DNA from: Saccoglossus kowalevskii
Lineage: Eukaryota; Hemichordata; Enteropneusta; Harrimaniidae
NCBI RefSeq assembly: GCF_000003605.2
Contig: NW_003157217.1
Span: 1 to 46,808, forward strand
Length of the DNA: 46,808 nt
Direction: 5' to 3'
The notes beneath the pieces were generated by a model, which worked only from the letters and a program-made list of their open reading frames with translations, searched no databases and was not told the origin of the DNA. The position numbers were made by a program, and so were the translations under genes. This document shows, in pieces, positions 241 to 46,332 of the stretch. How positions within the stretch are numbered: the stretch's first letter is position 1; each line of letters begins with the position of its first letter.

Positions 241-1266
241 GCGATATCGTTTTTGAAACATAAAAAAATCTGAAATAGCCGGCAATTCCGCTGAATTTCC
301 AATAATCGATGCAGCTGTGTGGTTAGGAGATCGAGCAATGTTTAGAGTAAAGTACAAACGGGCGTGGTTAGTTCTTGCATGGGAGACTGCTTGAGTAAAT
401 GAGCTGTTGAGTTTATTTTTTTAGTTCCATCACACATATCGAAAATATATAAGGCAACGTTCCTGCATTCTTTTTGCTGTGATGTCGATCATTTATAGTG
501 GAAAATCGTGGAATTTTTGAAACTGTTTTAATTATTACAAAGTTTTAAAATTTCTTTTAAATTTCAAGAACAGCTTGCTGACCTGGAATCGTGGAATTAT
601 TGTAACTGTTTTAATTAATGGACAGTTTTCAAATTCCTTCTAATTTCAAGAACAAGTTGCTGATCTGTCGGCACGTAGTGGGATTTACGCTGTTACCACT
701 CCGTGCAAAGTTGTTCAAAGTGATTGCAAAATTGTGCAAAGTTATTGAAAAGTTGGTAGATGTATTTGTATATATGACCTAAGTTGTTGGCAGATAGAAA
801 CACGCAGTTGTAAAGTCGAGAAATTCAATAAAAGCCAATTGAAAGCAGTCTATAGATGTTGCCATGTGGTGAGGGCAAAATGTTTGAAAACACCGTGCAA
901 AGTTGGAAAAAAACGATGGAAATGTTGGCGGAGTTGCTTATATATTTAACGTAAGTCATTTTCATGACAACCCCGTAGTTAAATTTCGAAAACATTAAGT
1001 AAATGTTCCGAGAATGTCTTATATATAAGCAGATTATCACCATAGCCTACCAAAGAATCGACAAGAAACTGCTTACAAAGTTGTAAAAAGCGATTGCAAA
1101 GTTGGTAGTTTCATTCGGGATTGTTACCTGTGATATCATATTAACAAGTCCAATAGTTAAAAGTTCGAAAATGTGAATAAATGTTTCGTTAATTGGTGTT
1201 AAATTATCGTAGTGTTACTCAAAGTATGTAGAGGTCATAGGTCAGTTATAGGAGGTACATGTGAAA
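241..1266 (+). repeat. Monomer M1, 1026 bp, with 83-bp internal duplication
   Basis: Longer than the norm because the segment starting AATCGTGG is present twice in tandem (504-586 and 587-669). The first copy carries the ATTACAAAG allele and the second the TGGACAG allele, so the unit joins two variants that are normally alternatives. The 3' half (about 660-1500) closely matches 18.37-19.21 kb. Class B (CGTAAGTCATTTTC). Direct repeat 1232-1244 intact. Confidence 0.93.
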
Positions 1267-2209
1267 GCGATATCGTTTTTGAAACTTAAAAAAATCTGAA
1301 ATAGCCGGCAATTCGGCTGAATTTCCAATAATCGATGCAGTTGTGTGGTTAGGTGATCGAGCAATGTTTAAAGTAAAGTACAAACGGGCGTGGTTAGTTC
1401 TTGCATGGGTGACTGCTTGAGTAAATGAGCTGTTGAGTTTATTTTTTTAGTTCCATCACGCATATCGAAAATATATAAGGCAACGTTCCTGCATTCTTTT
1501 TACTGTGATGTCGATCATTTATAGTGGAAAATCGTAGAATTTTTGTAACTGTTTTAATTATTACAAAGTTTTCAAATTCCTTTTAGATTTCAAGAACAAG
1601 TTGCTGAGCTGTCGGCACGTAGTGGGATTTACGCTGTTAACACTCCCGGCAAAGTTATTCAAAGTGATTGCAAAATTGTGCAAAGTTATTGCAAAGTTGG
1701 TAGATGGATTTGTATGTATGACCTAAGTTGTTGGCATATAGAAACACGCAGTTGTAAAGTCGAGAAATTTAATAAAAACCGATTGAAAGCAGCCTATAGA
1801 TGTTCCCATGAGCTGAGGGTAAAATCATAGAACATACCGTGCAAAGTTTGAAAAAGCGAAGGAAATGTTGGCGGAGTTGCTTATATATTTAACGTATGTC
1901 ATTTTCATGACAACCCCGCAGTTAAATTTCGAAAACATTAAGTAAATGTTCCGAGAATGTCTTATATATAATCAGATTATCACAACAGCCAACGGAAAAA
2001 TCGACAAGAAACTGCTTACAAAGTTGTAAAAAGCGATTGCAAAGTTGGTAGTATCATTCGGAATTGTTACCTGTGATATCATATTAACAAGTCCAATAGT
2101 TAAAAGTTCGAAAATGTGAATAAATGTTTCGTTAATTGGTGTTAAATTATCGTAGTGTTACTCAAAGTATGTAGAGGTCATAGGTCAATTATAGGAGGTA
2201 CCTGTGAAA
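1267..2209 (+). repeat. Monomer M2, 943 bp
   Basis: ATTACAAAG allele and class B' (CGTATGTCATTTTC). Its AATCAGATTATCAC variant is shared with M10, M12 and M19, marking a related subfamily. Direct repeat 2175-2187 intact. Confidence 0.92.
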
Positions 2210-3151
2210 GCGATATCGTTTTTGAACATTAAAAAATCTGAAATAGCCGGCAATTCAGCTGAATTTCAAATAATCGATGCAGCTGTGTGATTAGGTGATC
2301 GACCAATTTTTTAAAGTTAAGCACAAACGGGCGTGGTTAGTTCTTGCAAGGAAGACTGATTGAGTAAATGAGCTGTTGAGTTTATTTTTTTTGTTTCATC
2401 ACGCATATCGAAAATATATAAGGCAACGTTCCTGCATTCTTTCTTACTGTGATGTCGATCATTTATAGTGGAAAATCGTGGAATTGTTGTAACTGTTTTA
2501 ATTAACGGACAGTTTTCAAATTCCTTCTAATTTCAAGAACAAGTTGCTGATCTGTCGGCACGTAGTGGGATTTACGCTGTTAACACTCCCTGCAAAGATA
2601 TTCAAAGTGATTGCAAAATTGTGCAAAGTTATTCAAAGTTGGTAGATGGATTTGTATGTATGACCTAAGTTGTTGGCATATAGAAACGCGCAGTTGTAAA
2701 GTCGAGAAATTCAATAAAAGCCAATTGAAAGCAGTCTATAGTTGTTCCCATGAGCTGAAGGTAAAATGTTAGAAAACACCGTGCAATGTTGGAATAAGCG
2801 ATGGAAATGTTGGCGGAGTTGCTTATATATTTAACCTAAGTCATTGTCATGACAACGCCGCAGTTAAATTTCGAAAACATTAAGTAAATGTTCCAAGAAT
2901 GCTTCCTATATAAGCAGATTATCACCACAGCCTACCAAAAAATCGACAAGAAACTGCTTACAAAGTTGTAAAAAGCGATTGCAAAGTTGGTAGTTTCATC
3001 CGGGATTGTTACCTGTGATATCATATTAACAAGTCCAATAATTAAAAGTTCGAAAATGTGAATAAATGTTTCGTTAATTGGTGTTAAATTATCGTAGTGT
3101 TACTCAAAGTATGTATAGGTCATAGGTCAGTTATAGGAGGTACATGTGAAA
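2210..3151 (+). repeat. Monomer M3, 942 bp
   Basis: Class A. Near-copy of M9 about 5.08 kb downstream, sharing AAAGTTAAGCAC, CAAAGATATTC and the ACAACGCC variant. It contains the perfect palindrome AATTCAGCTGAATT at 2252-2265. Direct repeat 3117-3129 intact. Confidence 0.92.
2252..2265. other. Perfect 14-bp palindrome AATTCAGCTGAATT
   Basis: Self-complementary over 14 bp in units with the CAGCTG allele. Many other units read CGGCTG here, which breaks the symmetry. It sits between GCCGGC and ATCGAT in the palindrome cluster downstream of the landmark. Confidence 0.75.
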
Positions 3152-4094
3152 GCGATATCGTTTTTGAAACATAAACAAATCTGAAATAGCCGGCAATTTG
3201 ACTGAATTTCCAATAATCGATGCAGCTGTGTGGTTAGGTGATCAACCAATGTTTAAAGTAAAGTACAAACGGGCGTGGTTAGTTCTTGCATGGGAGACTG
3301 CTTGAGTAAACAAGCTGTTGAGTTTATTTGTTTAGTTCCATCACGCATATCGAAAATATATAAGGCAACGTTCCTGCATTCTTTTTACTGTGATGTCGAT
3401 TATTTATAGTGGAAAATCGTAGAATTTTTGTAACTGTTTTAATTATTACAAAGTTTTCAAATTCCTTTTAGATTTCAAGAACAAGTTGCTGAGCTGTCGG
3501 CACGTAGTGGGATTTACGCTGTTAATTCTCCCGGCAAAGTTATTCAAAGTGATTGCAAAATTGTGCAAAGTTATTGCAAAGTTGGTAGATGGATTTGTAT
3601 GTATGACCTAAGTTGTTGGCATATAGAAACACGCAGTTGTAAAGTCGAGAAATTTAATAAAAACCGATTGAAAGCAGTCTATAGATGTTCCCATGAGCTG
3701 AGGGTAAAATCATAGAACACACCGTGCAAAGTTGGAAAAAGCGAAAGAAATGTTGGCGGAGTTGCTTATATATTTAACGTATGTCATTTTCATGACAACC
3801 CCGCAGTTAAATTTCGAAAACATTAAGTAAATGTTCCGAGAATGTCTTATATATAAGCAGATTATCACCACAGCCTACCAAAAAATCGACAAGAAACTGC
3901 TTACAAAGTTGTAAAAAGCGATTGCAAAGTAGGTAGTTTCATTCGGGATTGTTACCTGTGATATCATATTAACAATTCCAATAGTTAAAAGTTCGAAAAT
4001 GTGAATAAATGTTTCGTTAATTGGTGTTAAATTATCGTAGTGTTAATCAAAGTATGTAGAGGTCATAGGTCAATTATAGGAGGTACCTGTGAAA
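3152..4094 (+). repeat. Monomer M4, 943 bp
   Basis: Shares CAATTTGACTG, TGATCAACC and AAACAAGCTG with M10, 5.07 kb away. M3-M4 and M9-M10 are therefore copies of a two-unit block. ATTACAAAG allele, class B'. Direct repeat 4060-4072 intact. Confidence 0.92.
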
Positions 4095-5038
4095 GCGATA
4101 TCGTTTTTGAAACATTAAAAAATCTGAAATAGCCGGCAATTCGGCTGAATTTCAAATAATCGATGCAGCTGTGTGGTTAGGTGATCGACCATTGTTTTTA
4201 AAGTAAAGTACAAAAGGGCGTGGTTAGTTCTTGCATGGGAGACTGCCTGAGTAAATGACCTGTTGAGTTTATTTTTTTTTGTTTCATCACGCATATCGAA
4301 AATATATAAGGCAACGTTCCTGCATTCTTTCTTACTGTGATGTCGATCATTTATAGTGGAAAATCGTGGAATTTTTGTAACTGTTTTAATTAATGGAAAG
4401 CTTTCAAATTCCTTCTAATTTTCAAGAACAAGTTGCTGAGCTGTCGGCACGTAACAGGATTTACGCTGTTACCACTCCGTGCAAAGTTGTTCAAAGTGAT
4501 TGCAAAGTTGTGCAAAGTTATTGAAAAGTTGGTAGATGTATTTGTATATATGACCTAAGTTGTTGGCATATAGAAACGCGCAGTTGTAAAGTCGAGAAAT
4601 TCAATAAAAGCCAATTGAAAGCAGTCTATAGATGTTGGCATGAGGTGAGGGCAAAATGTTTGAAACACCGTGCAATATTGGAAAAAACGAAGGAAATGTT
4701 GGCGGAGTTGCTTATATATTTAACCTAAGTCATTGTCATGACAACCCCGCAGTTAAATTTCGAAAACATTAAGTAAATGTTCCGAGAATGTCTCATATAT
4801 AAGCAGATTATCACAACAGCAACCGTAAAATCGACAACCAACTGCAACAAAGTTGTAAAAAGCTATTGCAAAGTTGGTAGCTTCATTCGGGATTGTTACC
4901 TGTGATATCATATTAACAAGTCCAATAGTTAAAAGTTCGAAAATGTGAATAAATGTTTCGTTAATTGGTGTTAAATTATCGTAGTGTTACTCAAAGTATG
5001 TAGAGGTCATAGGTCAGTTATAGGAGGTACATGTGAAA
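4095..5038 (+). repeat. Monomer M5, 944 bp
   Basis: Class A, TGGAAAG allele. Near 4815 it carries the AACCGTAAAATCG / CCAACTGCAAC variant also found in M8, M25 and M43. Direct repeat 5004-5016 intact. Confidence 0.92.
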
Positions 5039-5981
5039 GCGATATCGTTTTTGAAACATTAAAAAATCTGAAATAGCCGGCAATTCGGCTGAATTTCAAA
5101 TAATCGAAGCAGCTGTGTGGTTAGGTGATCGACCAATGTTTAAAGTAAAACACAAACGGGCGTGGTTAGTTCTGGCATGGGAGACTGCTTGAGTAAATGA
5201 GCTGTTGAGTTTATTTTTTTAGTTCCATCACGCATATCGAAAATATATAAGGCAACGTTCCTGCATTCTTTTTACTGTGATGTCGATCATTTATAGTGGA
5301 AAATCGTAGAATTTTTGTAACTGTTTTAATTATTACAAAGTTTTCAAATTCCTTCTAAATTTGAAGAACAAGTTGCTGAGCTGTCGGCACGTAGTGGGAT
5401 TTACGCTGTTAACACTCCCGGCAAAGTTGTTCAAAGTGATTGCAAAATTGTGCAAAGTTATTGCAAAGTTGGTAGATTTATTTGTATGTATGACCTAAGT
5501 TGTTGGCATATAGAAACGCGCAGTTGTAAAGTCGAGAAATTCAATAAAAGCCAATTGAAAGCAGTCTATCGATGTTCCCATGAGCTGAGGGTAAAATGTT
5601 AGAACACACCGTGCAAAGTTGGAAAAAGCGAAGGAAATGTTGGCGGAGTTGCTTATATATTTAACCGAAGTCATTGTCATGACAACCCCGCAGTTAAATT
5701 TCGAAAACATTAAGTAAATGTTCCTAGAATGTCTTATATATAAGCAGATTATCACAACAGCCAACGGAAAAATCGACAAGAAACTGCATACAAAGTTGTA
5801 AAACGCGATTGCAAAGTTGGTAGTTTCATTCGGGATTGTTACCTGTGATATCATAATAACAAGTCCAATAGTTAAAAGTTCGAAAATGTGAATAAATGTT
5901 TCGTTAATTGGTGTTAAATTATCGCAGTGTTACTCAAAGTATGTCGAGGTCATAGGTCAATTATAGAAGGTACCTGTGAAA
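5039..5981 (+). repeat. Monomer M6, 943 bp
   Basis: ATTACAAAG allele. Class A with a private CCGAAG change. It contains a 119-codon minus-strand open frame (5495-5854) that I do not treat as a gene. Direct repeat 5947-5959 intact. Confidence 0.92.
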
Positions 5982-6344
5982 GCGATATCGTTTTTGAAAC
6001 ATTAAAAAATCTGAAATAGCCGGCAATTCGGCTGAATTTCAAATAATCGATGGAGCTGTGTGATTAGGTGATCGACCAATGTTTAAAGTAAGGAACAAAC
6101 GGGCGTGGTTAGTTCTTGCATGGGAGACTTCCTGAGTAAATGAGCTGTTGTATTTATTTTTTTTGTTTCATCACGCATATCGAAAATATATAAGGCAACG
6201 TTCCTGCATTCTTTTTACTGTGATGTCGATCATTTATAGTGCAAAATCGTAGAATTTTTGTAACTGTAAATTGGTGTTAAATTATCGTAGTGTTACTCAT
6301 AGTATGTTGAGGTCATAGGTCAAATATACGAGGTACCTGTGAAA
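5982..6344 (+). repeat. Monomer M7, truncated to 363 bp (580-bp deletion)
   Basis: The unit jumps from TAACTGT (ends 6267, about +286) straight to AAATTGGTG (about +866), losing roughly 580 bp. TTAATT lies near both ends in full units and may have mediated the exchange. The same junction recurs in M37, M45 and M47, but M7 lacks their additional 40-bp deletion. Direct repeat 6310-6322 intact. Confidence 0.93.
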
Positions 6345-7287
6345 GCGATATCGTTTTTGAAACATTAAAAAATCTGAAATAGCCGGCAATTCGGCTGAAT
6401 TTCAAATAATCGAAACAGCTGTGTGGTTAGGTGATCGAGCAATGTTTAAAGTAAAGTACAAACGGGCGTGGTTAGTTCTTGCATGGGAGACTGCTTGAGT
6501 AAATGAGCTGTTGAGTTTATTTTTTGTTTGTTTCATCACGCATATCGAAAATATATAAGGCAACGTTCCTGCATTCTTTCTTACTGTGATGTCGATCATT
6601 TATAGTGGAAAATCGTGGAATTGTTGTAACTGTTTTAATTAACGGACAGTTTTCAAATTCCTTCTAATTTCAAGAACAAGTTGCTGATCTGTCGGCACGT
6701 AGTGGGATTTACGCTGTTAACACTCCCTGCAAAGTTATTCAAAGTGATTGGAAAATTGTGCAAAGTTATTGCAAAGTTGTTAGATGGATTTGTATGTATG
6801 ACCTAAGTTGTTGGCATATAGAAACACGCAGTTGTAAAGTCGAGAAATTTAATAAAAACCGATGGAAAGCAGTCTATAGATGTTCTCATGAGCTGAGGGT
6901 AAAATCATTGAACACACCGTGCAAAGTTGGAAAAAGCGAAGGAAATGCTGGCGGAGTTGCTTATATATTTAACCTAAGTCATTGTCATGACAGCCCCGCA
7001 GTTAAATTTCGAAAACATTATGTAAATGTTCCGAGAATGTCTCTTATATAAGCAGATTATCGCAACAGCAACCGTAAAATCGACAACCAACTGCAACAAA
7101 GTTGTAAAAAGCTATTGCAAAGTTGGTAGTTTCATTCGTGATTGTTACCTGTGATATTATATTAACAAGTCTATTAGTTAAAAGTTCGAAAATGTGAATA
7201 AATGTTTCGTTAATTGGTGTTAAATTAGCGTAGTGTTACTCAAAGTATGTAGAGGTCATAGGTCAATTATTGGAGGTACCCGTGAAA
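6345..7287 (+). repeat. Monomer M8, 943 bp
   Basis: Class A with many private changes (GATTGGAAAATTG, GAAATGCTGG, CATTATGTAAATG, AATTAGCGTAG). All are shared with M25, 15.46 kb downstream. Direct repeat 7253-7265 intact. Confidence 0.92.
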
Positions 7288-8224
7288 GCGATTTCGTTTT
7301 TGAAACATTAAAAAATCTGAAATAGCCGGCAATTCAGCTGAATTTCAAATAATCGATGCAGCTGTGTGATTAGGTGATCGACCAATTTTTTTAAAGTTAA
7401 GCACAAACGGGCGTGGTTAGTTCTTGCAAGGGAGACTGATTGAGTAAATGAGCTGTTGAGTTTATTTTTTTTGTTTCATCACGCATATCGAAAATATATA
7501 AGGCAACGTTCCTGCATTCTTTCTTACTGTGATGTCGATCATTTATAGTGGAAAATCGTGGAATTGTTGTAACTGTTTTAATTAACGGACAGTTTTCAAA
7601 TTCCTTCTAATTTCAAGAACAAGTTGCTGATCTGTCGGCACGTAGTGGGATTTACGCTGTTAACACTCCCTGCAAAGATATTCAAAGTGATTGCAAAATT
7701 GTGCAAAGTTATTCAAAGTTGGTAGATGGATTTGTATGTATGACCTAAGTTGTTGGCATATAGAAACGCGCAGTTGTAAAGTCGAGAAATTCAATAAAAG
7801 CCAATTGAAAGCAGTTGTTCCCATGAGCTGAAGGTAAAATGTTAGAAAACACCGTGCAATGTTGGAATAAGCGATGGAAATGTTGGCGGAGTTGCTTATA
7901 TATTTAACCTAAGTCATTGTCACGACAACGCCGCAGTTAAATTTCGAAAACATTAAGTAAATGTTCCAAGAATGCTTCCTATATAAGCAGATTATCACCA
8001 CAGCCTACCAAAAAATCGACAAGAACCTGCTTACAAAGTTGTAAAAAGCGATTGCAAAGTTGGTAGTTTCATCCGGGATTGTTACCTGTGATATCATATT
8101 AACAAGTCCAATAATTAAAAGTTCGAAAATGTGAATAAATGTTTCGTTAATTGGTGTTAAATTATCGTAGTGTTACTCAAAGTATGTAGAGGTCATAGGT
8201 CAGTTATAGGAGGTACATGTGAAA
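7288..8224 (+). repeat. Monomer M9, 937 bp
   Basis: Near-copy of M3 and, in its first half, of M26. It lost TCTATA near 7815 relative to M3. The CATGAC palindrome is changed to CACGAC at 7921. Direct repeat 8190-8202 intact. Confidence 0.92.
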
Positions 8225-9167
8225 GCGATATCGTTTTTGAAACATAAACAAATCTGAAATAGCCGGCAATTTGACTGAATTTCCAATAATCGATGCAGCT
8301 GTGTGGTTAGGTGATCAACCAATGTTTAAAGTAAAGTACAAACGGGCGTGGTTAGTTCTTGCATGGGAGACTGCTTGAGTAAACAAGCTGTTGAGTTTAT
8401 TTGTTTAGTTCCATCACGCATATCGAAAATATATAAGGCAACGTTCCTGCATTCTTTTTACTGTGATGTCGATCATTTATAGTGGAAAATCGTAGAATTT
8501 TTGTAACTGTTTTAATTATTACAAAGTTTTCAAATTCCTTTTAGATTTCAAGAACAAGTTGCTGAGTTGACGGCACGTAGTGGGATTTACGCTGTTAACA
8601 CTCCCGGCAAAGTTATTCAAAGTGATTGCAAAATTGTGCAAAGTTATTGCAAAGTTGGTAGATGGATTTGTATGTATGACCTAAGTTGTTGGCATATAGA
8701 AACACGCAGTTGTAAAGTCGAGAAATTTAATAAAAACCGATTGAAAGCAGCCTATAGATGTTCTCATGAGCTGAGGGTAAAATGTTAGAACACACCGTGC
8801 AAAGTTGGAAAAAGCGAAGGAAATGTTGGCGGAGTTGCTTATATATTTAACGTATGTCATTTTCATGACAACCCCGCAGTTAAATTTCGAAAACATTAAG
8901 TAAATGTTCCGAGAATGTCTTATATATAATCAGATTATCACAACAGCAAACGGAAAAATCGACAAGAAACTGCTTACAAAGTTGTAAAAAGCGATTGCAA
9001 AGTTGGTAGTATCATTCGGAATTGTTACCTGTGATATCATATTAACAAGTCCAATAGTTAAAAGTTCGAAAATGTGAATAAATGTTTCGTTAATTGGTGT
9101 TAAATTATCGCAGTGTTACTCAAAGTATGCAGTGGTCATAGGTCAATAATAGGAGGTACCTGTGAAA
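8225..9167 (+). repeat. Monomer M10, 943 bp
   Basis: Near-copy of M4 in its first part, class B' in its second. The direct repeat at 9133-9145 has a degenerate first half (TGGTCA), as do the sites ending M12 and M19. Confidence 0.92.
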
Positions 9168-9827
9168 GCGATATCGTTTTTGAAACATTAAAAAATCTGA
9201 AATAGCCGGCAATTCAGCTGAATTTCAAATAATCGATGCAGTTGTGTGGTTAGATGATCGACCAATTTTTTAAAATAAAGCACAAACGGGCGTGGCTAGT
9301 TCTTGCATGGGAGACTGCTTGAGTAAATGAGCTGTTGAGTTTATTTTTTTAGTTCCATCACGCATATCGAAAATATATAAGGCAACGTTCCTGCATTCTT
9401 TTTACTGTGATGTCGATCATTTATAGTGGAAAATCGTAGAATTTTTGTAACTGTTTTAATTATTACAAAGTTTTCAAATTCCTTCTAGATTTCAAGAACA
9501 AGTTGATGAGCTGTCGGCACATAGTGGGATTTACGCTGTTAACACTCCCGGCAAAGTTATTCAAAGTGATTGCAATGCTGTGCAAAGTTATTGAAAAGTT
9601 GGTAGATGTATTTGTATATATGACCTAAGTTGTTGGCAGATAGAAACACGCAGTTGTAAAGTCGAGAAATTCAATTAAAGCTTGTTACCTGTGATATCAT
9701 ATTAACAAGTCCAATAGTTAAAAGTTCGAAAATGTGAATAAATGTTTCGTTAATTGGTGTTAAATTATCGTAGTGTTACTCAAAGTATGTAGAGGTCATA
9801 GGTCAATTATAGGAGGTACCTGTGAAA
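9168..9827 (+). repeat. Monomer M11, truncated to 660 bp (~283-bp deletion)
   Basis: The unit runs to CAATTAAAGC (about 9681) and then continues directly at TTGTTACCTG, skipping about 283 bp that include the second TATATAA element and the second CAAAGTT pair. The same junction occurs in M20, 8218 bp downstream. Direct repeat 9793-9805 intact. Confidence 0.93.
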
Positions 9828-10770
9828 GCGATATCGTTTTTGAAACATTAAAAAATCTGAAATAGCCGGCAATTCGGTTGAATTTCAAATAATCGAAGCA
9901 GCTGTGTGGCTGGGTGATCGAGCAATGTTTAAAGTAAAGTACAAACTGGCGTGGTTAGTTCTTGCATGGGAGACTGCTTGAGTAAATGATCTGTTGAGTT
10001 TATTTTTTTAGTTCCATCACGCATATCGAAAATATATAAGGCAACGTTCCTGCATTCTTTTTACTGTGATGTCGATCATTTATAGTGGAAAATCGTAGAA
10101 TTTTTGTAACTGTTTTAATTATTACAAAGTTTTCAAATTCCTTTTAGATTTCAAGAACAAGTTGCTGAGCTGTCGGCACGTAGTGGGATTTACGCTGTTA
10201 ACACTCCCGGCAAAGTTATTCAAAGTGATTGCAAAATTGTGCAAAGTTATTGCAAAGTTGGTAGATGGATTTGTATGTATGACCTAAGTTGTTGGCATAT
10301 AGAAACACGCAGTTGTAAAGTCGAGAAATTTAATAAAAACCGATTGAAAGCAGCCTATAGATGTTCCCATGAGCTGAGGGTAAAATCATAGAACACACCG
10401 TGCAAAGTTGGAAAAAGCGAAGGAAATGTTGGCGGAGTTGCTTATATATTTAACGTATGTCATTTTCATGACAACCCCGCAGTTAAATTTCGAAAACATT
10501 AAGTAAATGTTCCGAGAATGTCTTATATATAATCAGATTATCACAACAGCCAACGGAAAAATCGACAAGAAACTGCTTACAAAGTTGTAAAAAGCGATTG
10601 CAAAGTTGGTAGTATCATTCGGAATTGTTACCTGTGATATCATATTAACAAGTCCAATAGTTAAAAGTTTGAAAATGTGAATAAATGTTTCGTTAATTGG
10701 TGTTAAATTATCGCAGTGTTACTCAAAGTATGCAGTGGTCATAGGTCAATAATAGGAGGTACCTGTGAAA
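9828..10770 (+). repeat. Monomer M12, 943 bp
   Basis: Class B', ATTACAAAG allele. It resembles M19, 6615 bp downstream (both have the CGAAGC start variant and the CAGTGTTACTC end). The direct repeat at 10736-10748 is degenerate (TGGTCA first half). Confidence 0.92.
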
Positions 10771-11715
10771 GCGATATCGTTTTTGAAACATTAAAAAATC
10801 TGAAATAGCCGGCAATTCAGCTGAATTTCAAATAATCGATGCAGCTGTGTGGTTAGGTGATCGACCAATTTTTTAAAATAAAGCACAAACGGGCGTGGCC
10901 AGTTCTTGCATGGGAGACTGCTTGAGTAAATGAGCTGTTGAGTTTATTTTTTTTGTTTCATCACGCATATCGAAAATATATAAGGCAAAGTTCCTGCATT
11001 CTTTCTTACTGTGATGTCGATCATTTATAGTGGGAAATCGTGGAATTGTTGTAACTGTTTTAATTAACGGACAGTTTTCAAATTCCTTCTAAATTTCAAG
11101 AACAAATTGCTGATCTGTCGGCACGTAGTGGGATTTACGCTGTTAACACTCCGTGCAAAGTTGTTCAAAGTGATTGCAAAGTTGTGCAAAGTTATTGAAA
11201 AGTTGGTAGATGTATTTGTATATATGACTTAAGTTGTTGGCATATAGAAACGCGCAGTTGTAAAGTCGAGAAATTCAATAAAAGCCAATTGAAAGCAGTC
11301 TAAAGATGGTGCCATGAGGTGAGAGCAAAATGTTTGAAAACACCGTGCAAAGTTGGAAAAAACGATGGAAATGTTGGCGGAGTTGCTTATATATTTAACG
11401 TAAGTCATTTTCATGACAACCCCGCAGTTAAATTTCGAAAACATTAAGTAAATGTTCCGAGAATGTCTTATATATAAGCAGATTATCACCACAGCCTACC
11501 AAAAAATCGACAAGAAACTGCTTACAAAGTTGTAAAAAGCGATTGCAAAGTTGGTAGTTTCATTCGGGATTGTTACCTGTGATATCATATTAACAAGTCC
11601 AATAGTTAAAAGCTCGAAAATGTGAATAAATGTTTCGTTAATTGGTGTTAAATTATCGTAGTGTTACTCAAAGTATGTAGAGGTCATAGGTCAGTTATAG
11701 GAGGTACATGTGAAA
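10771..11715 (+). repeat. Monomer M13, 945 bp
   Basis: Class B with the ACGGACAG allele. The single TGACCT half-site near +453 is changed to TGACTT at about 11226. Direct repeat 11681-11693 intact. Confidence 0.92.
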
Positions 11716-13608: not shown

Positions 13609-13813
13609 GCGATATCGTTTTTGAAACATTAAAAAATCTGAAATAGCCGGCAATTCGGCTGAATTTCAAATAATCGATGCAGCTGTGAGGTTTGGTGATC
13701 GACCAATGTTTAAAGTAAAGCACAAACGGGCGTGGATAGTTCTTGCATGGGAGACTGCCTGAGTAAATGAGCTGTTGAGTTTATTTTTTTTGTTTCATCA
13801 CGCATATCGAAAA

Positions 13814-14256: not shown

Positions 14257-14307
14257 CCCCGCAGTTAAATTTCGAAAACATTAAGTAAATGTTCCAAGAA
14301 TGCCTCA

Positions 14308-33960: not shown

Positions 33961-34200
33961 AAATAAGCAGATTATCACAACAGCCAACGGAAAAATCGAC
34001 AAGGAACTGCTTACAAAGTTGTAAAAAGCGATTGCAAATTTGGTAGTTTCATTCGGGATTGTTACCTGTGATATCATATTAACAAGTCCAATAGTTAAAA
34101 GTTCGAAAATGTGAATGAATGTTTCGTTAATTGGTGTTAAATTATCGTAGTGTCCAAAGTATTAGAGGTCATAGGTCAATTATAGGAGGTACCTGTGAAA
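33264..34200 (+). repeat. Monomer M38, 937 bp
   Basis: Class C. GACGAATG and CACATACGGGCG are shared with M46. It ends with the 4-bp-shorter GTGTCCAAAG. Direct repeat 34166-34178 intact. Confidence 0.92.
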
Positions 34201-35227: not shown

Positions 35228-36252
35228 GCGATATCGTTTTTGAAACATAAAAAAATCTGAAATAGCCGGCAATTCAGCTGAATTTCAAATAATCGATGCA
35301 GCTGTGAGGTTAGGTGATCGACCAATGTTTAAAGTAAAGTACAAACTGGCGTGGTTAGTTCTTGCATGGGAGACTGCTTGAGTAAATGAGCTGTTGAGTT
35401 TATTTTTTTAGTTCCATCACGCATATCGAAAATATATAAGGCAACGTTCCTGCATTCTTTTTGCTGTGATGTCGATTATTTATAGTGGAAAATTGTGGAA
35501 TTTTTGTAACTGTTTTAACTATTACAAAGTTTTAAAATTCCTTCTAAATTTCAAGAACAAGTTGCTGAGCTGGAATCGTGGAATTTTTGTAACTGTTTTA
35601 ATTTATGGAAAGTTTACAAATTCCTTCTAATTTTCAAGAACAAGTTGCTGAGCTGTCGGCACGTAGTGGGATTTACGCTGTCACCACTCCGTGCAAAATT
35701 GTTCAAAGTGATTGCAAAGTTGTGCAAAGTTATTGAAAAGTTAGTGATGTATTTGTATGTATGACCTAAGTTGTTGGCATATAGAAACGCGAAGTTGTAA
35801 AGTCGAAAAAATCATAAAAAGCCAATTGAAAGCAGTCTATAGTTGTTTCCCATGAGCTGAAGGTAAATGTTAGAAAACACCGGAGCAATGTTGGAATAAG
35901 CGAAGGAAATGTTGGCGGAGTTGCTTATATATTTAACCTAAGTCATTGTCATGACAACCCCGCAGTTAAATTTCGAAAACATTAAGTAAATGTTCCAAGA
36001 ATGCCTCATATATAAGCAGATTATCACCACAGCTACCAAAAAATCGACAAGAAACTGCTTACAAAGTTGTAAAAAGCGATTGGAAAGTTGGTAGTTTCAT
36101 TCGGGATTGTTACCTGTGATATCATATTAACAAGTCCAATAGATAAAAGTTTGAAAATGTGAATAAATGTTTCGTTAATTGGTGTTAAATTATCGTAGTG
36201 TTACTCAAAGTATGTAGAGGTCATAGGTCAATTATAGGAGGTACCTGTGAAA
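35228..36252 (+). repeat. Monomer M40, 1025 bp, with 83-bp internal duplication
   Basis: Adjacent copy of the duplication-bearing form. Its second segment carries TTTATGGAAAG instead of TGGACAG. Class A 3' half. Several one-base indels cluster at 35745-35890. Direct repeat 36218-36230 intact. Confidence 0.92.
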
Positions 36253-37193
36253 GCGATATCGTTTTTGAAACATTAAAAAATCTGAAATAGCCGGCAATTC
36301 AGCTGAATTTCAAATAATCGATGCAGCTGTGAGGTTAGGTGATCGACCAATGTTTAAAGTAAAGCACAAACGGGCGTGGTTAGTTCTTGCATAGGAGACT
36401 GCCTGAGTAAATGACCTGTTGAGTTTATTTTTTTGTTTCATCACGCATATCGAAAATATATAAGGCAACGTTCCTGCATTCTTTCTTACTGTGATGTCGA
36501 TCATTTATAGTGGAAAATCGTGGAATTGTTGTAACTGTTTTAATTAATGGAAAGTTTTCAATTTCCTTCTAATTTTCAAGAACAAGTTGCTGAGCTGTCG
36601 GCACGTAGTGGGATTTACGCTGTTACCACTCCGTGCAAAGTTGTTCAAAGTGATTGCAAAGTTGTGCAAAGTTATTGAAAAGTTGGTAGATGTATTTGTA
36701 TATATGAGTTAAGTTGTTGGCATATAGAAACGCGCAGTTGTAAAGTCGAGAAATTCAATAAAAGCCAATTGAAAGCAGTCTATAGATGTTGCCTTGAGGT
36801 GAGGGCAAAATGTTTGAAAACACCGTGCAAAGTTGGAAAAAAACGATGGAAATGTTGGCGGAGTTGCTTATATATTTAACGTAAGTCATTTTCATGACAA
36901 CCCCGCAGTTAAATTTTGAAAACATTAAGTAAATGTTCCGAGAATGTCTCATAAATAAGCAGATTATCAGAACAGCCAACGGAAAAATCGACAAGGAACT
37001 GCTTACAAAGTTGTAAAAAGCGATTGCAAATTTGGTAGTTTCATTCGGGATTGTTACCTGTGATATCATATTAACAAGTCCAATAGTTAAAAGTTCGAAA
37101 ATGTGAATGAATGTTTCGTTAATTGGTGTTAAATTATCGTAGTGTCCAAAGTATGTAGAGGTCATAGGTCAATTATAGGAGGTACCTGTGAAA
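36253..37193 (+). repeat. Monomer M41, 941 bp, mosaic
   Basis: Class B up to the palindrome (CGTAAGTCATTTTC) and class C from about 36.95 kb (ATAAATAAGC, GTGTCCAAAG). The switch creates the longest minus-strand open frame of the window (36755-37165, 136 codons). Direct repeat 37159-37171 intact. Confidence 0.92.
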
Positions 37194-38140
37194 GCGATAT
37201 CGTTTTTGAAACATAAACAAATCTGAAATAGCCGGCAATTCGGCTGAATTTCTAATAATCGATGCAGCTGTGTGGTTAGGTGATCGACCAATGTTTAAAG
37301 TAAAGTACAAACGGGCGTGGTTAGTTCTTGCATGGGAGACTGCTTCAGTAAATGAGCTGTTGAGTTTATTTTTTTAGTTCCATCACGAATATCAAAAACA
37401 TATAAGGAAACGTTCCTGCATTCTTTCTTACTGTGATGTCGATCATTTGTAGTGGAAAATCGTGGAATTTTTGTAACTGTTTTAATTAATGGAAAGTTTT
37501 CAAATTCCTTCTAATTTCAAGAACAAGTTGCTGATCTGTCGGCACGTAGTGGGATTTACGCTGTTACCATTCCGTGCAAAGTTGTTCAAAGTGATTGCAA
37601 AGTTGTGCAAAGTTATTGAAAAGTTGGTAGATGTATTTGTATATATGGCCTAAGTTGTTGGCATGTAGAAACCCGCAGTTGTAAAGTCAAGAAATTCAAT
37701 AAAAGCCAATTGAAAGCAGTCTATATATGTTGCCATGAGGTGAGGGCAAAATGTTTGAAAACACCGTGCAAAGTGGGAAAAAACAAAGGAAATGTTGGCG
37801 GAGTTGCTTATATATTTAACGTAAGTCATTTTCATGGCAACCCCGCAGTTAAATTTCGAAAACATTAAGTAAATGTTCCGATAATGTCTGTCTTATATAT
37901 AAGCAGATTATCACAACAGCCAACGGAAAAATCGTCAAGAAACTGCTTACAAAGTTGTAAAAAGCGATTGCAAAGTTGGTAGTTTCATTCGGGATTGTTA
38001 CCTGTGATATCATATTAACAAGTGCAATAGTTAAAAGTTCGAAAATGTGAATAAATGTTTCGTTAATTGGTGTTAAATTATCGTAGTGTTACTCAAAGTA
38101 TGTAGAGGTCATAGGTCAATTATAGGAGGTACCTGTGAAA
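37194..38140 (+). repeat. Monomer M42, 947 bp
   Basis: From about 37.38 kb it is a copy of M14 (AAAACATATAAGG, GTCTGTC insertion, CATGGCAACC). Class B. Direct repeat 38106-38118 intact. Confidence 0.92.
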
Positions 38141-39081
38141 GCGATATCGTTTTTGAAACATTAAAAAATCTGAAATAGCCGGCAATTCAGCTGAATTTCA
38201 AATAATCGATGCAGCTGTGAGGTTAGGTGATCGACCAATGTTTAAAGTAAAGCACAAACGGGCGTGGTTAGTTCTTGCATAGGAGACTGCCTGAGTAAAT
38301 GAGCTGTTGAGTTTATTTTTTTTGTTCCATCACGCATATCAAAAACATATAAGGAAACGTTCCTGCATTCTTTTTACTGTGATGTAGATCATTTATAGTG
38401 GAAAATCGTAGAAATTTTGTAACTGTTTTAATTAATACAAAGTTTTCAAATTCCTTCTAGATTTCAAGAACAAGTTGCTGAGCTGTCGGCTCGTAGTGGG
38501 ATTTACGCTGTTAACACTCCCGGCAAAGTTATTCAAAGTGATTGCAAAATTGTGCAAAGTTATTGCAAAGTTGGTAGATGTATTTGTATGTATGACCTAA
38601 GTTGTTGGCATATAGAAACGCGCAGTTGTAAAGTCGAGAAATTCAATTAAAGCCAATTGAAAGCAGTCTATAGATGTTCCCATGAGCTGAGGGTAAAATG
38701 TTAGAACACACCGTGCAAAGTTGGAAAAAGCGAAGGAAATGTTGGCGGAGTTGCTTATATATTTAACCTAAGTCATTGTCATGACAACCCCGCAGTTAAA
38801 TTTCGAAAACATTAAGTAAATGTTCCGAGAATGTCTCATATATAAGCAGATTATCACAACAGCAACCGTAAAATCGACAACCAACAGCAACAAAGTTGTA
38901 AAAAGCTATTGCAAAGTTGGTAGTTTCATTCGAGATTGTTACCTGTGATATCATATTAACAAGTCCAATAGTTAAAAGTTCGAAAATGTGAATAAATGTT
39001 TCGTTAATTGGTGTTAAATTATCGTAGTGTTACTCAAAGTATGTGGAGGTCATAGGTCAGTTATATGAGGTACATGTGAAA
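38141..39081 (+). repeat. Monomer M43, 941 bp
   Basis: Class A with the AACCGTAAAATCG variant near 38865 and GATGTAGATC near 38390. Direct repeat 39047-39059 intact. Confidence 0.92.
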
Positions 39082-40027
39082 GCGATATCGTTTTTGAAAC
39101 ATTAAAAAATCTGAAATAGCCGGCAATTCGGCTGAATTTCAAATAATCGATGCAGCTGTGTAATTAGGTGATCGGCCAATGTTTAAAGTAAAGAACAAAC
39201 GGGCGTGGTTAGTTCTTGCATGGGAGACTTCCTGAGTAAATGAGCTGTTGAGTTTATTTTTTTTGTTTCATCACGCATATCGAAAATATATAAGGCAACG
39301 TTCCTGCATTCTCTCTTACTGTGAGGTCGATCATTTAAAGTGGAAAATCGTGGAATTTTTGGAACTGTTTTAATTATTACAAAGTTTTCAAATTCCTTCT
39401 AAATTTCAAGAACAAGTTGCTGAGCTGTCGGCATGTAGTGGGATTTACGCTGTTAACACTCCGTGCAAAGTTGTTCAAAGTGATTGCAATGCTGTGCAAA
39501 GTTATTGCAAAGTTGGTAGATGTATTTGTATATATGACCTAAGTTGTTGGCGTATATGAACGCGCAGTTCTAAAGTCGAGAAATTTGATAAAAGCCAATT
39601 GAACGCAGCCTATAGATGTTCCCATAAGCTGAGTGTGTAAAATGTTAGAAAACACCGTGCAAAGTTGGAAAAAACGAAGGAAATGTTGGCGGCGTTGCTT
39701 ATATATTTAACCTAAGTAATTGTCATGACAACCCCGCAGTTAAATTTCGGAAATATTAAGTAAATGTTCCGAGAATGTCTCATAAATAAGCAGATTATCA
39801 CAACATCCAACGGAAAAATCGACAAGGAACTGCTTACAAAGTTGTAAACAGCGAATGCAAAGTTGGTAGTTTCATTCGGGATTGTTACCTGTGATATCAT
39901 ATTAACAAGTCCAATAGTTAAAAGTTCGAAAATGTGAATAAATGTTTCGTTAATTGGTGTTAAATTATCGTAGTGTTACTCAAAGTATGTTGAGGTCAAA
40001 GGTCAATTATAGGAGGTACCTGTGAAA
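39082..40027 (+). repeat. Monomer M44, 946 bp
   Basis: Copy of M36, class C. It starts the second class C island. A-spacer direct repeat at 39993-40005. Confidence 0.92.
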
Positions 40028-41060
40028 GCGATATCGTTTTTGAAACATTAAAAAATCTGAAATAGCCGGCAATTCGGCTGAATTTCAAATAATCGATGCA
40101 GCTGTGTGGTTAGGTGATCGACCAATGTTTAAAGTAAAGAACAAACGGGCGTGGTTAGTTCTTGCATGGGAGACTTCCTGAGTAAATGATAATATATAAG
40201 GCAACGTTCCTGCATTCTTTCTTACTGTGATGTCGATCATTTAAAGTGGAAAATCTTGGAATTTTTGTAACTGTAAATTGGTGTTAAATTATCGTAGTGT
40301 TACTCAAAGTATGTTGAGGTCATAGGTCAATTATAGGAGGTACCTGTGAAAGCGATATCGTTTTTGAAACATTAAACAATCTGAAATAACCGGCAATTCA
40401 GCTGAATTTCAAATAATCGATGAAGCTGTGTGGTTAGGTGATCGACGAATGTTTAAAGTAAAGCACATACGGGCGTGGTTAGTTCTTGAATAGGAGACTG
40501 CCTGAGTAAATGAGCTGTTGAGTTTATTTTTTTGTTTCATCGCGCATATCGAAAATATATAAGGCAACGCTCCTGCATTCTTTCTTACTGTGATGTCGAT
40601 CATTTATAGTGGCAAATCGTGGAATTGTTGTAACTGTTTTAATTAATGGACAGTTTTCAAATTCCTTCTAATTTCAAGAACAAGTTGCTGAGCTGTCGGC
40701 ACGTAGTGGGATTTAAGCTGTTACCACTCCGCGGAAAGTTGTTCAAAGTGATTGCAAAGTTTTGCAAAGTTATTGAAAAGTTGGTAGATGTATTTGTGTA
40801 TACGACCTAAATTGTTGGCATATAGAAACGCGCAGTTGTAAAGTCGAGAAATTCAATAAAAGCCAATTGAAAGCAGTCTATAGATGTTGCAATGAGGTGA
40901 GGGCAAAATGTTTGAAAACACCGTGCAATGTTGGAAAAAACGAAGGAAATGTTTGCGGAGTTGCTTATATATTTAACCTAAGTAATTGTCATGACAACCC
41001 CGCAGTTAAATTTCGGAAACATTAAGTAAATGTTCCGAGAATGTCTCATAAATAAGCAGA
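39170..41060 (+). repeat. Segmental duplication, copy 2 (partner 32.09-33.96 kb)
   Basis: Second copy of the block ending in M46. It explains the isolated class C island between class A/B units on both sides. Confidence 0.85.
40028..40351 (+). repeat. Monomer M45, truncated to 324 bp
   Basis: Copy of M37, 7088 bp downstream, with the same two deletion junctions (about 40189 and 40274/40275). Direct repeat 40317-40329 intact. Confidence 0.94.
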
Positions 41061-41290
41061 TTATCACACCATCCAACGGAAAATCGACAAGAACTGCTTA
41101 CAAAGTTGTAAACAGCGAATGCAAAGTGGGTAGTCTCATTCGGGATTGTACCTGTGATATCATATTAACAAATCCAATAGTTAAAAGTTCGAAAATGTGA
41201 ATAAATGTTTCGTTAATTGGTGTTAAATTATCGTAGTGTTACTCAAAGTGTGTTGAGGTCAAAGGTCAATTATAGGAGGTACCTGTGAAA
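40352..41290 (+). repeat. Monomer M46, 939 bp
   Basis: Copy of M38 until about 41.06 kb, then diverges. One-base losses cluster near 41080-41150 (GACAAGAACTGC, GGATTGTACC). Class C. A-spacer direct repeat at 41256-41268. Confidence 0.91.
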
Positions 41291-41614
41291 GCGATATCGT
41301 TTTTGAAACATTAAAAAATCTGAAATAGCCGGCAATTCGGCTGAATTTCAAATAATCGATGCAGCTGTGTGATTAGGTGATCGACCAATGTTTAAAGTAA
41401 AGAACAAACGGGCGTGGTTAGTTCTTGCATGGGAGACTTCCTGAGTAAATGATAATATATAAGGCAACGTTCCTGCATTCTTTCTTACTGTGATGTCGAT
41501 CATTTAAAGTGGAAAATCTTGGAATTTTTGTAACTGTAAATTGGTGTTAAATTATCGTAGTGTTACTCAAAGTATGTTGAGGTCATAGATCAATTATAGG
41601 AGGTACCTGTGAAA
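41291..41614 (+). repeat. Monomer M47, truncated to 324 bp
   Basis: Third copy of the doubly deleted unit, 1263 bp after M45 (junctions about 41452 and 41537/41538). Its 3' direct repeat at 41580-41592 has a degenerate second half (AGATCA). Confidence 0.94.
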
Positions 41615-42556
41615 GCGATATCGTTTTTGAAACATTAAAAAATCTGAAATAGCCGGCAATTCGGCTGAATTTCAAATAATCGATGCAGCTGTGTGGTTAG
41701 GTGATCGACCAATGTTTTTAAAGTAAAGTACAAACGGGCGTGGTTAGTTCTTGCATGGGAGACTGCCTGAGTAAATGACCTGTTGAGTTTATTTTTTTTT
41801 TGTTTCATCACGCATATCGAAAATATATAAGGCAACGTTCCTGCATTCTTTCTTACTGCGATGTCGATCATTTATAGTGGAAAATCGTGCAATTTTTGTA
41901 ACTGTTTTAATTAATGGAAAGCTTTCAAATTCCTTCTAATTTTCAAGAACAAGTTGCTGAGCTGTCGGCACGTAGTGGGATTTACGCTGTTACGACTCCG
42001 TGCAATGTTGTTCAAAGTAATTGCAAAGTTGTGCAAAGTTATTGAAAGGTTGGTAGATGTATTTGTATATATGACCTAAGTTGTTGGCATATAGAAACGC
42101 GCAGTTGTAAAGTCGAGAAATTCAATAAAAGCCAAATTGAAAGCAGTCTATAGATGTTGCCATGAGGTGAGGGCAAAATGTTTGAAAACACCGTGCAATA
42201 TTGGAAAAAACGAAAGAAATGTTGGCGGAGTTGCTTATATATTTAACCTAAGTCATTTTCATGACAACCCCGCAGTTAAATTTCGAAAACATTAAGTAAA
42301 TGTTCCGAGAATGTCTTATATATAAGCAGATTATCACAACAGCCAACGGAAAATCGACAGAAACTGCTTACAAAGTTGTAAAAGCGATTGCAAGTGGTAG
42401 TTTCATTCGGGATTGTTACCTGTGATATCATATTAACAAGTCCAATAGTAAAGTTCGAAAATGTGAATAAAATGTTTCGTTAATTGGTGTTAAATTATCG
42501 TAGTGTACTCAAAGTATGTTGAGGTCATAGGTCAATTATAGGAGGTACCTGTGAAA
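41615..42556 (+). repeat. Monomer M48, 942 bp, mosaic
   Basis: Mixed class marker (CCTAAG of class A with CATTTTC of class B at about 42246). Many one-base indels lie at 42345-42510 (GACAGAAACTGC, GCAAGTGGTAG, GTGTACTC). Direct repeat 42522-42534 intact. Confidence 0.9.
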
Positions 42557-43498
42557 GCGATATCGTTTTTGAAACATAAAAAATCGGAAATAGCCGGCAA
42601 TTCAGCTGAATTTCAAATAATCGATGCAGCTGTGAGGTTAGGTGATCGACCAATGTTTAAAGTAAAGCACAAACGGGCGTGGTTAGTTCTTGCATAGGAG
42701 ACTGCCTGAGTAAATGAGCTGTTGAGTTTATTTTTTTGTTTCATCACGCATATCGAAAATATATAAGGCAACGTTCCTGCATTCTTTCTTACTGTGATGT
42801 CGATCATTTATAGTGGGAAATCGTGGAATTATTGTAACTGTTTTAATTAATGGACAGTTTTCAAATTCCTTCTAATTTCAAGAACAAGTTGCTGATCTGT
42901 CGGCACGTAGTGGGATGTACGCTGTTACCACTCCGTGCAAAGTTGTTCAAAGTGATTGCAAAGTTGTGCAAAGTTATTGAAAAGTTGGTAGATGTATTTG
43001 TATATATGACTTAAGTTGTTGGCATATCGAAACGCGCAGTTGTAAAGTCGAGAAATTCAATAAAAGCCAATTGAAAGCAGTCTATAGATGTTGCCATGAG
43101 GTGAGGGCAAAATGTTTGAAAACACCGTGCAAAGTTGGAAAAAAACGATGGAAATGTTGGCGGAGTTGCTTATATATTTAACGTAAGTCATTTTCATGAC
43201 AACCCCGCAGTCAAATTTTGAAAACATTAAGTAAATGTTCCGAGAATGTCTTATATATAAGCAGATTATCACCACAGCCTACCAAAAAATCGACAAGAAA
43301 CTGCTTACAAAGTTGTAAAAAGCGATTGCAAAGTTGGTAGTTTCATTCGGGATTGTTACCTGTGATATCATATTAACAAGTCCAATAGTTAAAAGTTCGA
43401 AAATATGAATAAATGTTTCGTTAATTGGTGTTAAATTATCGTAGTGTTACTCAAAGTATGTAGAGGTCATAGGTCAATTATCGGAGGTACCTGTGAAA
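42557..43498 (+). repeat. Monomer M49, 942 bp
   Basis: Class B, TGGACAG allele. GTGGGATGTACG is shared with M50. Direct repeat 43464-43476 intact. Confidence 0.92.
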
Positions 43499-44439
43499 GC
43501 GATATCGTTTTTGAAACATTAAAAAATCTGAAATAGCCGGCAATTCAGCTGATTTTCAAATAATCGATGCAGCTGTGAGATTAGGTGATTGACCAATGTT
43601 TAAAGTAAAGCACAAACTGGCGTGGTTAGTTCTTGCATAGGAGACTGCCTGAGTAAATGAGCTGTTGAGTTTATTTTTTTCGTTCCATCACGCATATCGA
43701 AAATATATAAGGCAACGTTCCTGCATTCTTTCTTACTGTGATGTCGATCATTTATAGTGGGAAATCGTGGAATTATTGTAACTGTTTTAATTAATGGACA
43801 GTTTTCAATTCCTTCTAATTTCAAGAACAAGTTGCTGATCTGTCGGCACGTAGTGGGATGTACGCTGTTACCACTCCGTGCAAAGTTGTTCAAAGTGATT
43901 GCAAAGTTGTGCAAAGTTATTGAAAAGTTGGTAGATGTATTTGTATATATGACTTAAGTTGTTGGCATATAGAAACGCGCAGTTGTAAAGTTGAGAAATT
44001 CAATAAAAGCCAATTGAAAGCAGTCTATAAATGTTGCCATGAGGTGAGGGCAAAATGTTTGAAAACACCGTGCAATGTTGGAAAAAACGAAGGAAATGTT
44101 GGCGGAGTTGTTTATATATTTAACGTAAGTCATTTTCATGACAACCCCGCAGTTAAATTTCGAAAACATTAAGTAAATGTTCCGAGAATGTCTTATATAT
44201 AAGCAGATTATCACCACAGCCTACCAGAAAATCGACAAGAAACTGCTTACAAAGTTGTAAAAAGCGATTGCAAAGTTGATAGTTTCATTCGGGATTGTTA
44301 CCTGTGATATCATATTAACAAGTCCAATAGTTAAAACTCGAAAATGTGAATAAATGTTTCGTTAATTGGTGTTAAATTATCGTAGTGTTAATCAAAGTAT
44401 GTAGAGGTCATAGGTCAATTATAGGAGGTACCTGTGAAA
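43499..44439 (+). repeat. Monomer M50, 941 bp
   Basis: Class B, similar to its upstream neighbour M49. Direct repeat 44405-44417 intact. Confidence 0.92.
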
Positions 44440-45383
44440 GCGATATCGTTTTTGAAACATTAAAAAATCTGAAATTGCCGGCAATTCAGCTGAATTTCAA
44501 ATAATCGATGCAGCTGTGTGGTTAGGTGATCGACAAATGTTTAAAGTAAAGCACAAACGGACGTGGTTAGTTCTTGCATAGGAGACTGCCTGAGTAAATG
44601 ACCTGTTGAGTTTATTTTGTTTTGTTTCATCACGCTTATCGAAAATATATAAGGCAACGTTCCTGCATTCTTTCTTACTGTGATGTCGATCATTTATAGT
44701 GGAAAATCGTGGAATTTTTGTAACTGTTTTAATTAATGGAAAGTTTTCAAATTCCTTCTAATTTTCAAGACCAAGTTGCTGAGCTGTCGGCACGTAGTGG
44801 GATTTACGCTGTTACCACTCCGTGCAAAGCTGTTCAATGTGATTGCAAAGTTGTGCAAAGTTATTGAAAGGTTGGTAGATGTATTTGTATATATGACCTA
44901 AGTTGTTGGCATATAGAAACGAGCAGTTGTAAAGTCGAGAAATTCAATAAAAGCCAATTGAAAGCAGTCTATAGATGTTGGCATGAGGTGAGGGCAAAAT
45001 GTTTGAAACACCGTGCAATATTGGAAAAAACGAAGGAAATGTTGGCGGAGTTGCTTATATATTTAACCTAAGTCATTGTCATGACAACCGCCCAGTTAAA
45101 TTTCGAAAACATTAAGTAAGTCTTCCAAGAATGCCTCATATATAAGCAGATTATCACCACAGCCTACCAAAAAATCGACAAGAAACTGCTTACAAAGTTG
45201 TAAAAAGCGATTGCAAAGTTGGTAGTTTCATTCGGGATTGTTACCTGTGATATCATATTAACAATTCCAATAGTTAAAAGTTCGAAAATGTGAATAAATG
45301 TTTCGTTAATTGGTGTTAAAGTATCGTAGTGTTAATCAAAGTATGTAGAGGTCATAGGTCAATTATAGGAGGTACCTGTGAAA
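44440..45383 (+). repeat. Monomer M51, 944 bp
   Basis: Class A with private ACCGCCC and TAAGTCTTCC near 45090-45125. Direct repeat 45349-45361 intact. Confidence 0.92.
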
Positions 45384-46332
45384 GCGATATCGTTTTTGAA
45401 ACATTAACAAATCTGAAATAGCCGGCAATTCGGATGAATTTCAAATAATCGATGCAGCAGTGTGGTTAGGTGATCGACCAATGTTTTTAAAGTAAAGTAC
45501 AAACGGGCGTGGTTAGTTCTTGCATGGGAGACAGCCTGAGTAAATGACCTGTTGAGTTTATTTTTTTGTTTGTTTCATCACGCTTATCGAAAATATATAA
45601 GGCAACGTTCCTGCATTCTTTCTTACTGTGATGTCGATCATTTATAGTGGAAAATCGTGGAATTTTTGTAACTGTTTTAATTAATGGAAAGTTTTCAAAT
45701 TCCTTCTAATTTTCAAGAACAAGTTGCTGAGCTGTCGGCACGTAGTGGGATTTACGCTGTTACCACTCCGTGCAAAGTTGTTCAAAGTGATTGCAAAGTT
45801 GTGCAAAGTTATTGAAAGGTTGGTAGATGTATTTGTATATATGACCTAAGTTGTTGGCATATAGAAACGCGCAGTTGTAAAGTCGAGAAATTCAATAAAA
45901 GCCAATTGAAAGCAGTCTATAGATGTTGCCATGAGGTGAGGGCAAAATGTTTGAAAACACCGTGCAATATTGGAAAAAACGAAGGAACTGTTGGCGGAGT
46001 TGCTAATATATTTAACGTAAGTCATTTTCATGACAACCCCGCAGTTAAATTTCGAAAACATTAAATAAATGTTCCGAGAATGTCTTATATATAAGCAGAT
46101 TATCACAACAGCCAACGGAAAAATCGACAAGAAACTGCTTACAAAGTTGTAAAAAGCGATTGCAAAGTTGGTAGTTTCATTCGGGATTGTTACCTGTGAT
46201 ATCATATTAACAAGTCCAATAGTTAAAAGTTCGAAAATGTGAATAAATGTTTCGTTAATTGGTGTTAAATTATCGTAGTGTTACTCAAAGTATGTAGAGG
46301 TCATAGGTCAGTTATAGGAGATACATGTGAAA
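45384..46332 (+). repeat. Monomer M52, 949 bp
   Basis: Class B. Slightly long through T-tract and AATGTTTTTAAAG insertions. A 119-codon minus-strand frame lies at 45846-46205. Direct repeat 46298-46310 intact. Confidence 0.92.

Follow-up and report, generated by a model that had tools for sequence, protein, structure and literature searches.

The 46,808-nucleotide contig NW_003157217.1 of the acorn worm Saccoglossus kowalevskii (hereafter, the window; 1..46808, forward strand; contig C4655 in the assembly of 4830 contigs and 572 Mb that we searched) consists of one tandem array in which units of a ~943-bp satellite follow each other head to tail; the 53 unit starts have a uniform orientation, and 44 units carry an exact direct repeat of AGGTCA with a 1-bp spacer (DR1). 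DR1 elements are established binding sites for the nuclear receptors RXR, HNF4, and COUP-TF. We found that the DR1 was present in the monomer before the sampled satellite subfamilies split and that it has since been better preserved than the greater part of the monomer. The best overall explanation, to which we give just short of an even chance, is that this homogenized composite satellite has preferentially kept the DR1 as a putative receptor contact site.

The original prediction for this DNA, which was made from the sequence, had identified the motif as a DR1 and counted 44 exact copies in 53 units. The motif has the genuine AGGTCA-N-AGGTCA arrangement that defines the DR1 class, i.e., two direct AGGTCA repeats separated by 1 bp, and both counts are correct. 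The 44 exact matches to AGGTCANAGGTCA are all on the forward strand, with the first starting at 1232 and the last located at 46298-46310, and their spacer is T in 37 and A in 7. The nine inexact rows in the pile-up of 53 comprise eight with one substitution (AGATCA in one half-site in three rows, TGGTCA as the first half-site in three and as the second in one, and ACGTCA in one) and one, in the unit at 24523, with a precise 7-bp deletion. No match to AGGTCANAGGTCA was found in 100 shuffles of the window; because the copies are related by descent, this shuffle expectation does not tell how likely a single ancestral monomer was to contain the motif. Two further statements in the prediction were broader than the data allow. 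The DR1 was placed 35 bp upstream of every copy of the landmark GCGATATCG, which is slightly overstated, since the landmark is found at this distance from 40 of the 44 exact sites and the remaining four lack an exact GCGATATCG within a distance of 100 bp. Similarly, the description of the sites as evenly spaced fits 30 of the 43 gaps between exact sites (930-955 bp) but not the others, which span 324-4424 bp owing to units that are truncated, longer than usual, or mutated. Using the monomer at 1200..2142 (forward strand, 943 bp) as the reference for coordinates and consensus numbering, the relevant features are as follows:

1232..1244, forward strand: DR1 of the reference monomer (consensus 33-45), two copies of the 7-bp unit AGGTCAT
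1267..1275, forward strand: landmark GCGATATCG, starting 35 bp after the DR1 start
1719..1724, reverse strand: third AGGTCA half-site (TGACCT); the window holds 48 reverse-strand AGGTCA

Slippage loss of one AGGTCAT unit occurs but is rare; of the 150 sites that we read and whose flanks matched, 148 contain two units and 2 contain one. The idea that the DR1 is an expanding 7-bp tandem repeat is unsupported, as none of the 150 sites has three units.

The evidence that the DR1 is preferentially kept comes from a wider sample of 178 monomers from 11 contigs that aligned over at least 700 bp; shorter pieces were excluded, as were eight DR1 loci outside the satellite (L001-L008), the loci of 5S rRNA genes, and the mitochondrial loci. 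Using Fitch parsimony on the tree of these monomers, we counted 21 changes in the DR1 13-mer compared to a mean of 42.4, and only 5.5% of all 13-mers, or 9.2% of the 532 13-mers away from CpG, had counts as low. Expressed per site, the DR1 half-sites changed 1.58 times, the 13 bp to the left 2.85 times, the 13 bp to the right 4.31 times, and all sites on average 3.24 times. The sample contains three subfamilies, i.e., A (the window type, 140 monomers), B (19 monomers), and C (18 monomers), the consensuses of which differ at 180 of 943 columns. Relative to the window consensus, 11.8% of positions differ in consensus B and 12.2% in consensus C, and the DR1 is unchanged in both. The DR1 lies within the third longest run that is invariant across the three consensuses (19 bp), and when we scored exact intactness with the subfamilies weighted equally and the center base free, it ranked 14 of 919 windows. 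The contigs that yielded subfamilies B and C came from a listing of DR1 sites; a DR1-free listing, based on the exact 15-mer CATATTAACAAGTCC, led to C74, C113, and C124, the same array contigs, and included no further contig ahead of C203.

The same 15-mer identified 1199 copies of the satellite in the genome, compared to 4 matches for the reversed control. Among these copies, 929 (77.5%) have an exact DR1 at the right place, and the control motif AATGTTNAAAGTA is kept in 646 (53.9%).

Several observations weigh against a special standing of the DR1. The comparison with neighboring bases that the original prediction had proposed favors the DR1 in the wider sample, as described above, but in the window alone the DR1 is ordinary, with a mean conservation of 0.968 that 39% of 13-mers equal or exceed. 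The tree on which the changes were counted assumes descent without conversion, which satellites violate. If three flanking bases are added on each side of the DR1, the resulting 19-mer (TAGAGGTCATAGGTCAATT) has 69 changes, and 71% of 19-mers are as low or lower. The spacer base, with 2 changes, changed no more than the bases of the half-sites. Per-site changes of 1.0-1.9 were also counted in at least five other 19-bp blocks, and those kept as well as the DR1 half-sites or better include TGTGATATCATATTAACAA (1.0), CTGCTTACAAAGTTGTAAA (1.16), TATATAAGCAGATTATCAC (1.53), and TGTTCAAAGTGATTGCAAA (1.58). Because other blocks are kept equally well, a receptor site cannot be picked out by conservation. 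The genome-wide comparison relied on one control motif, AATGTTNAAAGTA, which is farther from the anchor, so that indels could have caused the loss of more copies of the control than of the DR1; in the sample, intactness is 0.847 for AATGTTNAAAGTA and 0.832 for the DR1 with the subfamilies weighted equally, and 145 and 152 of 175, respectively, when pooled. Finally, within the first ~13 kb of contig C482, the first six listed CATATTAACAAGTCC copies have no exact DR1 and the next three have one. Altogether, the DR1 belongs to a set of roughly six conserved blocks, and in the sample it stands out moderately.

The satellite is a homogenized complex satellite with a composite monomer that consists of the DR1 stretch, a decayed 5S-derived segment, and three copies of a ~171-bp unit. 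In addition to its head-to-tail arrangement and its many related copies in the genome, it has no long coding frame, and the longest stop-to-stop frame in the window is 144 amino acids. Units are mainly 932-950 bp long, with variants of 324, 363, 660, 903, and ~1025 bp. The two units of 660 bp, at 9101 and 17319, lie far apart yet are 99.1% identical, and such distant near-identical units are probably the mark of copying and unequal exchange within the array. The 903-bp units (at 23620, 25455, 29184, and 31026) and the 324-bp units (at 32873, 39961, and 41224) are likewise near-identical variants that recur through the array; they have the DR1 spacer A in common, together with gaps totaling ~40 bp relative to the reference. 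Satellite copies are also embedded in longer contigs (C58, 100 kb; C203; C446), which counts against the window being a contaminant contig. Consensus 462-937 is made up of three diverged copies of the ~171-bp unit (offset of 171 bp; 63% identity over 301 columns; E 3e-14). TATA-like sites are present at consensus 273 and 766, and a run of eight T at consensus 243-250 follows the 5S-like segment. The 5S-like and repeated parts of the reference monomer are as follows:

1352..1413, forward strand: 5S rRNA-derived segment (consensus 153-214), the consensus aligned ungapped with nt 30-91 of the 5S rRNA of the same genome, 45/62 identical (72.6%)
1385-1413, forward strand: box-C-like stretch (consensus 186-214), the last 29 bases of that segment, with 28/29 of the consensus identical to 5S
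1661..1789, forward strand: internal repeat copy 1 (consensus 462-590), ~171-bp period
1840..1959, forward strand: internal repeat copy 2 (consensus 641-760)
2009..2136, forward strand: internal repeat copy 3 (consensus 810-937), which holds TGTGATATCATATTAACAA, the 19-mer with the highest conservation in the monomer

The third copy also includes TTACCTGTGATATCATATTAACAAGTCC (consensus 868-895; e.g., 2067-2094), which contains this 19-mer, itself better kept than the DR1.

The 5S alignment indicates that part of the monomer descends from a 5S sequence. Its score is 56, whereas the 2000 Markov shuffles reached 33 at most and the reverse complement scored 20. The side of the segment toward box A matches 5S much less well (17/33), and the box-C-like stretch changes faster than average in the tree of 178 monomers (4.28 versus 3.24 per site). 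Because the box-C-like stretch evolves fast and the box-A side matches poorly, the 5S promoter looks decayed, and we infer that the segment is a fossil rather than a working promoter; with 4.28 changes per site, present selection on the 5S box C is unsupported. Genuine 5S gene arrays are found on C3485 (mostly in ~1139-bp steps) and on C2212 and C3801 (mostly in ~1579-bp steps). A comparison of the remainder of the monomer with 5S spacers (L037 and L041 of C3485; L039 of C2212) gave nothing convincing, with a best E of 0.074 outside the 5S segment; at one 5S gene copy, the satellite match extends ~12 bp beyond the gene end. The lack of homology between the remainder and the 5S spacers compared argues against the satellite being a diverged 5S gene unit. 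Searches with the 5S family found nothing in window positions 1100-4100 with E values up to 10, or in L022, L024, L015, L017, and L012 with E values up to 1, which, together with the lack of conservation of box C among copies, argues against an active 5S gene and a 5S-derived short interspersed nuclear element (SINE). The dispersed and more diverged copies L022 and L024 (on C58 and C129) carry wider 5S matches (5S nt 11-104 and 35-101), suggesting that a longer 5S piece was probably ancestral. These two copies were found via an exact DR1, and their DR1 is therefore no evidence. The Rfam matches on the monomer (Spy1786666, mir-36, and ArcZ) scored below the curated thresholds, and we took them as chance matches; the Spy1786666 match overlaps the 5S-like stretch.

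Exact DR1 sites are not confined to the satellite. The whole assembly contains 4335 exact DR1 sites compared to 58 for the reversed control. Among the first 100 of the listed sites, 36 lie outside the satellite, and the 10 of those 36 that we read have no satellite similarity; exact DR1 sites outside the satellite seem far commoner than expected by chance. As a candidate origin for these dispersed sites, we considered a transposon, but the flanks of eight loci (L001-L008) share no similarity with each other, and we saw no common element in these eight. DR1 sites with a G or C spacer number 356 compared to 28 for the reversed control, and some of them recur at 923-932-bp steps on C930, C1187, and C879; these arrays may represent a candidate satellite subfamily with a changed spacer. 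One G/C-spacer DR1 is on C820, a contig with satellite copies. At C255:22199, C599:46724, and C773:23165, DR1 matches overlap 7 bp apart, giving three consecutive AGGTCA half-sites with G/C spacers.

Among the possible DR1-binding partners, the original prediction had included the insect-type receptor USP. The mitochondrial genome in the assembly (contig C4830; 17,037 bp) has COX1 on the opposite strand and ND2 before ND1, and its genes use AAA, lack AGG, and rarely use AGA (5 in 11 genes counted, with approximate gene ends). In the available text of the report on the Saccoglossus kowalevskii mitochondrion, COX1 is inverted, ND1 or ND2 is transposed, AAA encodes Lys, AGA encodes Ser, and AGG is unused (PMC3121625). 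The match in gene order and codon traits argues that the host is an acorn worm and not an insect; the rearrangements reported for the mitochondrion of the lancelet Asymmetron, as far as the accessible part of that source describes them, differ from those in C4830 (PMC2034537). In a hemichordate host, USP drops out, and the corresponding partner would be RXR. The zf-C4 DNA-binding domain has 40 matches in the genome, counted exon by exon and over zf-C4 receptors as a whole, indicating that the genome encodes nuclear receptor DNA-binding domains.

Under the explanation that we favor, unequal exchange and copying between arrays would have spread the satellite and kept it uniform, and pieces of one or two copies would occasionally have ended up elsewhere. 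The conserved blocks would be putative protein contact sites that matter for the packaging or maintenance of the arrays, and the DR1 would be recognized by a nuclear receptor of the DR1-binding class (e.g., COUP-TF, HNF4, or RXR). Receptor binding at the DR1 is the most specific of these readings and is plausible from the motif by itself. Alternatively, the DR1 could go back to an accidental duplication of 7 bp in the monomer that founded the satellite and be intact because of recent descent, gene conversion, and chance, without being bound. We regard this neutral account as quite possible, if short of even. The ordinary rank of the DR1 among the 13-mers of the window fits it, as does the fact that the motif was chosen for being recognizable; the near-identity of the far-apart units at 9101 and 17319 implies that copies are not independent, and the unit at 24523 documents that an exact 7-bp loss happens. 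What speaks against neutrality is that the rate of change in the half-sites is roughly half the mean and that, genome-wide, the DR1 is retained more often than the sole control motif.

Two functional alternatives fare less well. The array could act as a receptor sink or as hormone-responsive heterochromatin that titrates or recruits RXR, HNF4, or COUP-TF. The dozens of consensus DR1 sites in the array, their excess over the reversed control in the assembly, and the nuclear receptor domains encoded in the genome are all compatible with this possibility; more than a third of the first 100 listed exact sites are outside the satellite, so that the satellite is not the sole pool and the outside sites would compete, and we consider such a role improbable. 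Still less probable, and in our view hardly to be expected, is that the monomer is a transcription unit, driven by RNA polymerase III from the 5S-like segment or by RNA polymerase II from the TATA-like sites, with the DR1 as an upstream element. The near-identity of the box-C-like stretch to the genome's 5S, the run of eight T, the two TATA-like sites, and the conserved block TATATAAGCAGATTATCAC could all be read in this way, but the fast evolution of the box-C-like stretch and the poor match on the box-A side are at odds with it.

We found no description of this satellite in the titles and abstract openings of the literature on Saccoglossus or hemichordate satellites, on satellite DNA and nuclear receptors, and on 5S and SINEs, a coverage that leaves out most subscription journals. 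According to the available portions of two reports, the PcP190 satellite of frogs consists of ~190-bp tandem noncoding repeats with a 120-bp region that resembles transcribed 5S rDNA and a variable rest (PMC4201667, PMC11675491); the promoter terms looked for do not occur in the accessible text of PMC11675491. PcP190, as described there, is the nearest precedent that we found for 5S descent. Both are tandem noncoding satellites with a segment that resembles transcribed 5S rDNA; unlike PcP190, the acorn worm monomer is ~943 bp long, has a 62-bp 5S-like part, and includes a DR1 and three ~171-bp copies. Martins et al. reportedly described in 2006 a centromeric tandem repeat derived from 5S rDNA in the fish Hoplias malabaricus, which, going by the title of that work, is likewise tandem and of 5S origin in a different host. 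Binding is what defines the known DR1 response elements, which typically act close to genes. The DR1 of the acorn worm has the same consensus arrangement as these elements; here, it is repeated in an array and known from its sequence alone. The CENP-B box and similar motifs are protein sites that are kept in satellites. Like the CENP-B box, the DR1 is a short motif that is kept better than most of its monomer; the motif is different, and the protein partner is only putative. By this analogy, a satellite of 5S descent may have kept the DR1 through the subfamily split as a putative packaging or maintenance site for a receptor of the COUP-TF, HNF4, or RXR class, a CENP-B-box-like use that we consider rather unlikely in this full form.

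The satellite is new and belongs to a known kind, with a real and preferentially kept DR1. Even if the DR1 is not bound, the data support the 5S descent of part of the monomer and illustrate how a recognizable motif that looks special by eye can exceed the average degree of conservation only moderately. Binding at the DR1 sites, if it occurs, would place roughly a thousand receptor sites or more (929 by one anchor motif) in a single hemichordate satellite and would tie a factor of the hormone receptor class to heterochromatin.

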